Shown: piece by piece, positions 19,509 to 24,055 of the stretch
Layout: the number at the start of each line of letters is the position of its first letter
How positions within the stretch are numbered: the first letter of the stretch is position 1
Source of the DNA: Candidatus Nitronereus thalassa
Lineage (GTDB): Bacteria; Nitrospirota; Nitrospiria; Nitrospirales; UBA8639
DNA length: 64,000 nt
NCBI RefSeq assembly: GCF_032191465.1
Contig: NZ_JAQOUE010000001.1
Location: 3,007,501-3,071,500, forward strand
Direction: 5' to 3'
Position numbers and translations under genes: made by a program
Notes under the pieces: model-generated
The model's input: only the letters and a program-made list of their open reading frames with translations
What the model was told of the DNA's origin: nothing
Databases searched by the model: none

Positions 19509-19587
19509 AGAGACGTTTTCTCCTTTCGAACCGAGCTCAGCTGAATCCCCGTGCGCGAGCCAAAATGAATATGATAGGGTGACGCTT

Positions 19588-20022
19588 ATGTCGTATACAC
19601 CATTCTTTTTAGTCAATGCCGTGCTCGGGGCCATTGCCGTCACGGTAGGTCTGTGGTTTCTCCAAGGAGATCTTTCTTCAGCCGTCACCATTATCCTTAT
19701 CGTTGGCCTGACGATTCTTTATGCCAAAGTCTGCCCGAGTACTGCCCATGTGTGGATGTGGTCTACGTTGCTTCTAGGTTTAGAAAGTTTGGCTTGGCCT
19801 TTTCAAATGTTGGGTGAACTTCAACAGTTCGGTCCCGAACCTCCCATTGAAGAAATGAGCAAAGTCTTTACCGCCGTGTTGTTTGGGTTGTTTTCTGGCA
19901 TTTTTTGGCTGACTTTTGCATACGGTGTCTACCGTCGCACGCAACCCAAAGTTGAAAGCTCTTCATCTGGTGAGCCCCTCACCTCCAATCAAGCCAAAGC
20001 CCAACGGAAAAAACGTCGCTAG
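19588..20022 (+). CDS. Small integral membrane protein, function unknown
   Basis: A 144-residue protein starting at the ATG at 19588 (a GTG three codons upstream is possible). Four hydrophobic segments are visible: about residues 5-25, 29-47, 54-74 and 93-117. A short strongly charged C-terminal tail (KAQRKKRR) ends it. I recognise no family. It is monocistronic and followed at once by a long inverted repeat that may end transcription both from this gene and from priA, which runs convergently. Confidence 0.6.
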   Translation: MSYTPFFLVNAVLGAIAVTVGLWFLQGDLSSAVTIILIVGLTILYAKVCPSTAHVWMWSTLLLGLESLAWPFQMLGELQQFGPEPPIEEMSKVFTAVLFGLFSGIFWLTFAYGVYRRTQPKVESSSSGEPLTSNQAKAQRKKRR

Positions 20023-20107: not shown

Positions 20108-22378
20108 TCACCCCATTTCCATCGGGTCGACATTGATGCCAAATTGCAATCCTTTGTGGTGTTTGTCGGCTGCCATGGATTCATACGTGTGGCGAATGAG
20201 AGTCTTGGCCTGACCAACATCATCAGCTTTAAAAAGAATGGTTTCCCGAAACAGTCGTCGATGTCGAAGCCCCTGGGTAGCTATGGGCCCCAAAATTTTT
20301 GTGTCCATAGCCAGGGAAGATTTGTTGTTGGAAGTCTGGGAGGCCAATTGACTGGCCAAAGTTTGCACCCATCGTCCTGCGGCTTCTTGAACGGTGACCT
20401 GATTGGCCCCCGATACTGTCATTTGTATAAAGTGAATGAAGGGGGGATAACCCACTGCTTCACGAAAGGCGAGTTCGTGGTCATAAAAAATTGAGGGCTG
20501 TTGTTGGGCGATGGCGTGCATCACATGATGAGAGGCCAGTCGGGTCTGAATGACCACTTGGGGTTCCATGCCGTGGTGCGTCACAAGCTGAATCGCAGAT
20601 TGGAGATGGTGATACAACCGTTCGGCTGATCGGAAGTCCGGCAGATGGAGCCCAGCGTCTGCATAGGGGATGCCTACGAAACGCACTGGCGACAAAGGCA
20701 TGCCATGAAACAACATTTCCGTGCCCACGAGTATCTGAATGCTTCCCTTGATGAATTGTTCCCGAATCACCCGCGCATCAGATTCGGTGCGAACATTATT
20801 GCGGTCCAAGCGACCAATGTTGGCCTCAGGGAATTCCCGACGGAATTCTTGTTCGAGACGTTCCGTGCCAAAGCCGCCGGGTTCAAGGTGGGAGCCGGAG
20901 CATTCCGGGCACACAAGCGGGACTGATTCTTCCTTCCCACAATAGGGACATCGCATATGCGGTGGAGAGGTGAGGAGCCTCATTGGGACTTGGCAGCGGG
21001 CACATTGCCCAGTCATTCCGCAATCACGACATACGAGGGAGGATGAAAATCCCTTTCGATTATGGAAGATAATTATCCCGCCTCCTGCCGCGAGTGCTTG
21101 GTTTACTCCCTGGCGCATTTCTTCAGAAATCGTGACGCCATAGGGCATTTGAAGATGATCCACGACTTGAATGGTACTCTGTTGGCCTATCGGCTGTGAT
21201 AGTTCGAAATTCGGGGCGGAGGTGAAAGAACAACGATGCACCGTCTCTAAGGAAGGGTGCGGGGAATGCAAGAGCAAGGTGGCGTGACTGAGACGAGTTC
21301 GTTCTCGTGCCACTTCTCGTGCGTGATAGTATGGCGCTTGCTCATCTTTGTAGGTGGAGTCTTCCTCATAACTGAGGCAGATGAGGCCTAGGTAAGGAAC
21401 CGGAGCAAACACAGACATTCGCGTTCCGACCACAACCTGATAGCGGCCTCGTTGGATGGCCTGCCATTCCTTCATGCGAAGAGGGTCAGGCATCCCGCTA
21501 TGATACAGCCCAATATTGATACCCAGTTTTTCTTGCAAGGTGTGGGCGCAAGCCCTTGCCTGAAAAATATCAGGCAAGATGACTAGCACTGTTCGTTGTT
21601 GCTTGAGGGTTTCTTGGATAGAGTGCACGAGAAGAGAAGTGAAGCCCTGGCCTTTGGTGTTTGTAAAGAATTCTCCAAACGATGGCTGAGACAAGTGACG
21701 TTGGAAATTCTTCCACCACGGTGGATGATCAATGGGTTCAGTGCCTTTGGCCGAATCTTTTTTGTCTAAATCTGAGGGTGTTCTCTCGGATAGGGCAGTG
21801 GGGGGTTCACTACGAGAAGGGACGGAATAAAGGTGAACTTCTTCCACCCACTTCTGACGCTTCAGTTGGGTAAGGGTTGAGGAGCCTGTAGGGATATTTT
21901 TTTTAAGAGTCTGGAGAGTCAATCCTTTTGGTTTTTTGTTCAAAATGCCCAAGAGGTTTTTGGCAGCGTTCGCAAGGCGTCCTCTTTCAAGAGCTTGTTG
22001 CCCTAACTCTGTGATCCGTAGGCGCGATGTGGTTTTAAAAGGTGGTTGAGGAGGTTGGATCAATTGAAAACAGACCCCAACGGGTGCAATGTAATAGTCG
22101 GCAATCCATTCGGCCAGGGCGATCATTTTGGGATCAAGATCAAACTCTGGTGTCGGGGTCAGGTGGTCTTTTAACTCACGAATTTTGCTTAAGGGTATGG
22201 CAGGGTTCAAAGAGTCTTCGTAAAAGGAGACGACAAAGCCGGGACGGGCTGTGCGTCCAAAGGGAGCCAAGATCCAGTGGCCGACCTTTAAGGTGTCCTG
22301 CCAAGTCGATGGAACGCGGTAGGTGAAGGATTGAGTGGAACGTTGGGGAAAAATGACATCGGCAAAGGTTGGTGGCAT
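20108..22378 (-). CDS. priA: PriA-like primosomal protein lacking helicase motifs
   Basis: A 756-residue PriA with the expected order: N-terminal DNA-binding domain (about 1-105), winged helix, two helicase lobes, and a zinc module whose eight cysteines are at about 450, 453, 459, 462, 477, 480, 490 and 493 (CRDCGMTGQCARC and CPYCG...CPEC). PriA restarts collapsed replication forks. The ATPase motifs are gone: where GVTGSGKTEVY should be there is NTKGQGFTSLL (about 240-250), DEEHD is SYEED (about 336-340), and QVAGRAGR is QSAIQLVTHHG (about 593-603). Loss of all three implies no ATP hydrolysis; actinobacterial and Deinococcus PriA proteins show comparable losses, from memory. A 157-base gap separates it from the divergent gene at 22536. 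Confidence 0.88.
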   Translation of the reverse strand: MPPTFADVIFPQRSTQSFTYRVPSTWQDTLKVGHWILAPFGRTARPGFVVSFYEDSLNPAIPLSKIRELKDHLTPTPEFDLDPKMIALAEWIADYYIAPVGVCFQLIQPPQPPFKTTSRLRITELGQQALERGRLANAAKNLLGILNKKPKGLTLQTLKKNIPTGSSTLTQLKRQKWVEEVHLYSVPSRSEPPTALSERTPSDLDKKDSAKGTEPIDHPPWWKNFQRHLSQPSFGEFFTNTKGQGFTSLLVHSIQETLKQQRTVLVILPDIFQARACAHTLQEKLGINIGLYHSGMPDPLRMKEWQAIQRGRYQVVVGTRMSVFAPVPYLGLICLSYEEDSTYKDEQAPYYHAREVARERTRLSHATLLLHSPHPSLETVHRCSFTSAPNFELSQPIGQQSTIQVVDHLQMPYGVTISEEMRQGVNQALAAGGGIIIFHNRKGFSSSLVCRDCGMTGQCARCQVPMRLLTSPPHMRCPYCGKEESVPLVCPECSGSHLEPGGFGTERLEQEFRREFPEANIGRLDRNNVRTESDARVIREQFIKGSIQILVGTEMLFHGMPLSPVRFVGIPYADAGLHLPDFRSAERLYHHLQSAIQLVTHHGMEPQVVIQTRLASHHVMHAIAQQQPSIFYDHELAFREAVGYPPFIHFIQMTVSGANQVTVQEAAGRWVQTLASQLASQTSNNKSSLAMDTKILGPIATQGLRHRRLFRETILFKADDVGQAKTLIRHTYESMAADKHHKGLQFGINVDPMEMG

Positions 22379-23498: not shown

Positions 23499-23771
23499 AT
23501 GTGGATCGTTTTAGAAAAGAAGTCTGTGTTGAAAATCATCGATAGGTTGCCTGCCGATGTGGTGTTAAAATATGAGGCATGGAAACGCATTGTTGAATTG
23601 GAAGGGCCAGCTGGTCTTCGTCAAATCAAAGGGTTTCATGATGAAGCACTGAAGGGAGACTGGAAGGGGTTTCGCTCTTCCCGGTTGGGTAGGAAATGGC
23701 GGGTTATTTATGTTATTGCGAAAGAACAATTTGAAGTTTTTGTAGTTGAAGTAAATCCTCATGACTATTAA
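23499..23771 (+). CDS. higB: RelE/HigB-type toxin
   Basis: A 90-residue protein of the RelE/ParE fold. The pattern is an N-terminal helix (VLKIIDRLPADVVLKYEAW), a loop GFHDEALKGDWKGFRSSRLGR, and the final strands KWRVIYVIAKEQFEVFVVEVNPHDY. The basic residues of the strands and the HDY end match RelE-superfamily toxins that cleave mRNA on the ribosome. It precedes its antitoxin by 17 bases, the HigBA order. The translation start has almost no Shine-Dalgarno sequence. Which RelE subfamily it belongs to cannot be fixed by eye. Confidence 0.8.
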   Translation: MWIVLEKKSVLKIIDRLPADVVLKYEAWKRIVELEGPAGLRQIKGFHDEALKGDWKGFRSSRLGRKWRVIYVIAKEQFEVFVVEVNPHDY

Positions 23772-23788
23772 CTAAGATAGGTGAACAA

Positions 23789-24055
23789 ATGAAGGTAAAC
23801 AAGAAAGATTTTGTCCGGGCTAAGGTGAATCGTAAGATTTCTCCTGGTGAGATGCTTAAAACACTCAGAGAATTACAGGAATTGACTCAAAAGGACTTAG
23901 CTGACCAAACTGGCATTTCCCAATCCAACATCTCCGCAATGGAAAATAATGTCAGTCAAATAGGTCGAGACAGGGCATTAGCCCTAGCCAAAGTGCTGAA
24001 AGTACATCCTGCCGTTATTCTGTTTCCAGACTTTGATATTGCCCACGTCGCGTAG
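23789..24055 (+). CDS. higA: HigA-type antitoxin with XRE helix-turn-helix
   Basis: An 88-residue protein with an XRE helix-turn-helix at about residues 25-80 (LRELQELTQKDLADQTGIS followed by QSNISAMENNV). The N-terminal 22 residues are basic and possibly the part that covers the toxin. Such antitoxins neutralise the upstream toxin and repress the shared promoter. The ribosome site AGGTG lies before the ATG. The pair is followed within 30 bases by the second copy of the 37-base repeat. Confidence 0.82.
   Translation: MKVNKKDFVRAKVNRKISPGEMLKTLRELQELTQKDLADQTGISQSNISAMENNVSQIGRDRALALAKVLKVHPAVILFPDFDIAHVA

Follow-up and report, generated by a model that had tools for sequence, protein, structure and literature searches.

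PriA without ATP-motor motifs in Candidatus Nitronereus thalassa: a candidate pseudohelicase of an order of Nitrospirota, with a parallel in a second group of the phylum

The window considered here is a stretch of 64,000 nucleotides from Candidatus Nitronereus thalassa (contig NZ_JAQOUE010000001.1, positions 3,007,501 to 3,071,500), whose reverse strand carries a priA gene (Table 1). The product matches the NCBIfam priA profile TIGR00595 with 360 bits (cut-off 230), and the domain models PF17764 (PriA_3primeBD; 59 bits, 4e-16) and PF18074 (PriA_C; 35.6 bits) each score above their Pfam cut-offs. In a phmmer search of the PDB, residues 240-659 align to PriA structures. The AlphaFold2 model, computed from an alignment of 77 proteins (the window protein and fetched loci), has the overall fold of PriA, with a pLDDT of 90.1 and a pTM of 0.91. 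Structural comparison of the model (VIA) returned PriA in rows 1-5 (Z 30.5-31.9), the closest matches being those of E. coli and Klebsiella, while the next family, Mfd, reached 18.2. The motor lobes are thus predicted by the model to be still folded despite the lost ATP site.

Convergent with priA lies an open reading frame for a protein of 147 residues without a Pfam match above the cut-off. In the priA loci fetched from relatives, tblastn matched it 48 times, and the neighbourhood is therefore conserved. A pair resembling a RelE-like toxin and an HTH antitoxin is also encoded in the window, and no match to it was found in the same fetched loci.

Table 1. Coordinates of priA, its parts and neighbouring genes in the window
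Feature	Position	Strand	Remarks
priA	20108..22378	(-)	756 aa; ATP-motor-deficient PriA, from profiles, alignment, AlphaFold2 model and structural matches
3' DNA-binding domain, residues 1-110	22049..22378	(-)	Retained; PF17764; Y20, G33, Y96 and G101 kept in both motor-deficient lineages
Motif I (Walker A) relic, residues 239-250, TNTKGQGFTSLL	21629..21664	(-)	Phe replaces the catalytic Lys
Motif Ib region, residues 316-327	21398..21433	(-)	Retained; G318 and R320 in 55/55 proteins of the order
Motif II relic, residues 336-340	21359..21373	(-)	SYEED replaces DEEHD; E338 (second Glu) kept in 52/55
Post-motif II segment, residues 343-355	21314..21352	(-)	Retained; R354 in 54/55 proteins of the order and 42/42 of the second group
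Motif III relic, residues 371-375	21254..21268	(-)	HSPHP replaces GSATP
Motif IV, residues 437-444	21047..21070	(-)	Retained; R441 in 54/55 proteins of the order
Cysteine-rich zinc region, residues 447-499	20882..21040	(-)	Eight Cys retained; 156/156 proteins
Motif VI relic, residues 594-603, SAIQLVTHHG	20570..20599	(-)	Arg in column 598: 0/55 of the order, 58/58 canonical
C-terminal domain, residues 641-756	20111..20458	(-)	Retained; PF18074 above cut-off
147-aa protein	19579-20022	(+)	No Pfam match above cut-off; convergent with priA
RelE-like toxin and HTH antitoxin-like pair	23499-24055	(+)	

Aligned with the PriA of PDB entry 4nl4, the window protein has GQGFT for GSGKT, SYEEDSTYK for DEEHDSSYK, HSPHP for GSATP, and SAIQLVTHHG at motif VI. 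When 156 PriA proteins are aligned, all 58 canonical ones carry Lys, Asp-Glu and Arg in the columns concerned, and the window protein carries Phe, Ser-Tyr and Leu instead. The signature of an active SF2 DNA helicase (GxGK[ST], the DE of Walker B, QxxGRxGR) is not found in it. A relocation of the motifs to other places in the protein is ruled out, as the same alignment columns hold the replaced residues. A preliminary description of this DNA had proposed that Walker A, the DEEH box and QVxGRAGR were all replaced while the eight zinc cysteines and the N-terminal DNA-binding domain remained, and both statements are borne out by the alignments, the cysteine count (8/8) and the PF17764 match. Its phrase "without any helicase motif" is right for the ATP motifs but too strong as a whole, because motif Ib (VVGTRMSVFAP), motif IV (FHNRKGF) and parts of motifs V (VGTEML) and Ia survive. 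The Walker A residues G243, G245 and T247 and the motif II residue E338 are also still present. The retained segment after motif II is, by its position, presumably the aromatic-rich loop of PriA.

The loss is older and wider than one genome. The TIGR00595 search covered 198 genomes of the phylum; from the loci fetched, 156 proteins were aligned, two loci being left out as partial (L137, L194) and three for want of a PriA frame (L139-L141). GxGK[ST] stands at the Walker A columns in 58/58 canonical proteins and in 0/98 of the others, which divide into the window's order (0/55; families f1 and f2), the related family f7 of the same class (0/1) and a second group of eleven families (0/42). The other seven PriA proteins looked at within the window's class (families f3-f6, f8 and f9) are all canonical. 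None of the 98 non-canonical proteins combines Lys246, Asp336 and Glu337. Two proteins of the order, L076 (genome G165) and L084 (G195), hold D-E-E at motif II without a Walker A, so decay has been uneven, and they are possible intermediate states of it. A regular expression for motif VI gave eight matches in the order, all of them chance matches at other places, and the column test was used instead.

A long open PriA frame is present in 55 of the order's 56 genomes. The exception is G105 (family f2; 2.0 Mb, 99% complete), in which neither TIGR00595 nor a relative's protein as query found PriA; an assembly gap is possible there, because the genome is in 80 contigs. A scan of genome contigs yielded 23 loci, of which L213 lacks both the Walker A and the DEEH patterns; in 12 others the DEEH pattern matches but the Walker A pattern applied does not. 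L213 is the nearest named record, a PriA of 67% identity whose motifs are also gone; it is labelled as a Nitrospinota MAG, possibly in error.

At least two independent losses have occurred in the phylum. An rpoB tree of 40 genomes (42 were requested; G028 gave no match and G194 a partial one) requires three changes, at least two of which are forced by well-supported branches; the position of f7 is poorly supported. In that tree, the nearest canonical relative of the second group is family f32 (support 80). In a PriA tree built without the ATP-motif columns, for which the program flags long branches, two changes suffice: the order groups with f7 (SH-aLRT 99), and those members of the eleven families that were tested form a clade of their own (100). 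Forcing all motor-deficient proteins into one clade is rejected (AU p 0.040), and with it a single horizontal origin, at a p value only mildly below 0.05 and in the presence of long branches. The simplest reading is one loss along the branch leading to the order plus f7 and another along that leading to the second group, which makes the motor-deficient state of the window's lineage no younger than the order plus f7.

Both lineages have lost largely the same residues. Among 84 columns that are near-invariant in canonical PriA, the order has lost 31 (below 50%) and the second group 26, and 24 columns are shared by the two sets (Fisher P 1e-12). This overlap is partly built in at the motif columns, because the groups were defined by motifs; the overlap among the kept residues is not. 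Lost in both are the whole Walker A block, D336, E337, G371, A373, T374, Q434, R442, G559, Q594, G597, R598, G600, R601, R711 and a few neighbours, a set made up almost wholly of ATP-site residues. Losses of W91 and Y95 were also noted. Kept at 90% or more in both are 29 of the 84 columns, including all eight Cys, four residues of the 3' domain, G318, E338, R354, P375, G443, E586 and R639, and the C-terminal domain is mostly kept in both. An interpretation of the R711 loss as loss of the SSB-tail contact Arg697 was dropped: according to a table in the accessible part of PMC6618814, Arg697 sits in a Ser-Arg-Val-Arg stretch, which is taken to lie further downstream.

Purifying selection maintains the gene of the order, which changes faster than in canonical lineages and is partly relaxed in lobe 1. 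For pairs sharing no genome (22 from the order, 18 canonical, 6 from the second group), overall omega is 0.234, 0.225 and 0.200, respectively, a measure that cannot separate a function in restart from another function; a separate run covered 79 non-independent pairs of the order. In the order, omega is 0.257 in lobe 1, 0.164 in lobe 2 and 0.154 in the zinc region, versus 0.180, 0.168 and 0.199 in canonical lineages. The ratio of nonsynonymous differences in lobe 1 to those in the rest, calculated with a pseudocount and replacing the omega ratio of lobe 1 to lobe 2, is 1.37 in the order versus 0.90 in canonical lineages (Mann-Whitney p 1.3e-4); for the second group, no difference from the canonical ratio is seen (p 0.41). 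The PriA/rpoB distance, as medians over non-independent pairs, amounts to 5.71 in the order, 4.7 in the second group and 2.07 in canonical lineages, so that PriA of the order has changed about 2.8 times faster relative to rpoB. With lobe 1 relaxed and the gene changing at this rate, a partial functional decay is possible. The earlier argument from a full-length frame to selection is insufficient by itself; selection as such is backed by the dN/dS values.

No second PriA was found in the genome that holds the window (4.0 Mb, 2 contigs, 98.7% complete), where the PriA_C model has one match and TIGR00595 has four, the window frame being the only one of the four located by place. In 30 other genomes in which all TIGR00595 matches could be located, the extra ones are mostly short, lie in frames of other lengths and are taken as other helicases. 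A second PriA covering for the deficient copy is rejected on the single PriA_C match; a second canonical gene had been named in the preliminary description as something to look for.

The same description had proposed looking for PriB, DnaT and PriC. In the genome in question, the searches for PriC and DnaT gave 0 matches, and the PriB model matched only an SSB (so named by NCBIfam), below the cut-off and flanked by frames read as ribosomal S6 and S18. The partner set of the PriA-PriB-DnaT primosome was not found there. The C-terminal tip of SSB, of the DIPF type, recruits PriA and other proteins. An SSB at L243:1351-1755 (-), beside ribosomal-protein-like frames, ends in ...HSYDGGDYA and lacks the usual tip of this kind. 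A DnaC-type loader may be encoded, judging from one weak DnaC/IstB-like match to PF01695 above the cut-off and one below. DciA is present (E 7e-18) and was found in 188/198 genomes; it does not explain the motor loss, because it is equally common in canonical genomes.

Full-length PcrA/UvrD was searched for in 33 genomes with TIGR01073, full length being defined as a match that extends to positions 722-725 at the C-terminus of the model. It is present in 11/12 canonical genomes and 10/10 of the second group, and in none (0/11) of those from the order plus f7, whose best matches stop at about 630-654. In a tree of 40 fetched proteins, 11 of the 13 from the window's clade, one for each of 11 genomes, fall into a paralogue clade of the UvrD family (support 100) that also contains second copies from canonical genomes; the remaining two sit on long branches and lack the C-terminal tail. 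The corresponding locus in the window's own genome is C1:3317797-3319683 (L273). From these matches, the window's clade appears to have lost both the PriA motor and full-length PcrA/UvrD, and the second group only the PriA motor. As a single event, this co-loss is a lead rather than a rule.

A PriA pseudohelicase as a kind is already known from Deinococcus radiodurans. In the accessible text of PMC4504706, biochemistry of that PriA is described: it has no ATPase or unwinding activity and binds single strands, forks and DnaB, while the PriA motifs are otherwise well conserved among 100 PriA proteins from 18 phyla. The D. radiodurans protein binds forks with a Kd in the range of about 100 nM. 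Like the window protein, it has lost ATP motifs and kept its DNA-binding domains, and D. radiodurans has no clear PriB or DnaT. The differences are the phylum, the kind of evidence (biochemistry there, sequence analysis here) and the extent of the loss, which in D. radiodurans is a change of the Walker A Lys to Arg and in the window protein takes in Walker A and motifs II, III and VI altogether. Actinobacterial PriA has lost its helicase domains, according to UniProt notes. The part of PMC1193525 that is accessible calls it only "smaller and very divergent". It is divergent like the window protein, which scores far below the cut-offs of the PRK14873 models. The earlier statement that similar losses are known therefore stands biochemically for Deinococcus (PMC4504706) and only in that general wording for Actinobacteria.

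The E. coli mutants K230A and K230R are engineered point mutants that have no ATPase and still assemble the primosome on model substrates; for K230A, DnaB loading in vitro is described in the accessible text of PMC10175261. They work with PriB, DnaT and DnaC, whereas the genome studied here yielded neither PriC nor DnaT and, for PriB, nothing but an SSB match. In fork-bound E. coli PriA, the lagging single strand passes, in the same portion of that source, through a pore formed by the zinc module, the second lobe and the C-terminal domain, and these are parts that the window protein has kept. The proposal of the preliminary description, that replacement of the helicase would leave PriA as a platform or restart to another helicase, is consistent by analogy with the K230 mutants. 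It had also stated that no report for this lineage was known, which agrees with the literature searched: no report of PriA motor loss in a Nitrospira or Nitrospirota lineage was found there, most subscription papers lying outside its reach. Within the searchable literature, three things look new: the lineage, the repetition of the loss, and the disappearance of full-length PcrA/UvrD alongside it in the window's clade.

As an orthologue of PriA that has lost its catalytic motifs and whose gene is kept by selection, the window protein can be called a PriA pseudohelicase. Judging from the sequence evidence, it is likely that this sole PriA found is a selected, vertically inherited pseudohelicase that serves, independently of ATP, as a structure-specific platform for recognising forks and loading DnaB, probably together with DciA. 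The 3' domain, the C-terminal domain, the zinc module and, on both helicase lobes, the surfaces facing the DNA would recognise the abandoned fork. PriA would then recruit DnaB, probably with the loader DciA, onto the single strand of the lagging side, which would be already exposed or be exposed by another helicase. It is quite possible, if somewhat against our expectation, that another helicase (RecG, the UvrD-family paralogue or a further one) unwinds the lagging strand in trans and PriA only marks the fork, an arrangement compatible with the platform function. RecG scores above the cut-off in the window's own genome and the paralogue occurs in all 11 genomes tested from the window's clade, but neither is special to the motor-deficient lineages, and the same 11/11 genomes yielded no full-length PcrA/UvrD.

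That priA is decaying because restart no longer needs it is very unlikely. Its faster evolution, the relaxed lobe 1 and the genome G105 without a detected PriA point in this direction; against it stand the long frames in the remainder of the order, the eight cysteines in 55/55 of its proteins, an overall omega of about 0.23 that equals the canonical value, and a motor-deficient state no younger than the order plus f7. A residual or altered ATPase or nucleotide binding with unusual motifs is highly improbable, even though the window protein holds G243, G245, T247 and E338, the last of these is found in 52/55 proteins of the order and 41/42 of the second group, and two relatives keep D-E-E. Within the order, however, the catalytic Lys is missing from 54/55 proteins, the single remaining one standing outside a GxGK context, and the motif VI Arg from 55/55; the Walker A letters vary even between genera, and the change of K to R alone abolishes the ATPase of E. 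coli PriA, as stated in the accessible text of PMC4504706. A sequencing or assembly artefact is practically negligible, as the same loss recurs in 55/55 proteins of the order from separate assemblies.

Beyond the platform reading, a broader and tentative one, which we consider rather doubtful, is that restart in the order plus f7 has been rebuilt without ATP-driven 3'-5' fork motors. The PriA motor and full-length PcrA/UvrD would have been lost on the common stem, and PriA would have turned into a clamp that needs no ATP, passes DnaB on to DciA and selects forks by binding alone; the second lineage would have reached the same PriA end state independently while keeping PcrA.

Whether bacteria need the motor of PriA in restart is an old question, and the E. 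coli mutants show it to be dispensable in the laboratory. Within one phylum, the same ATP-site residues have been removed at least twice and the rest has been kept, so that motor and platform function are told apart at the level of single residues. Those near-invariant residues that both lineages kept, 29 of 84, are thereby candidates for fork recognition and for contact with DnaB or DciA.
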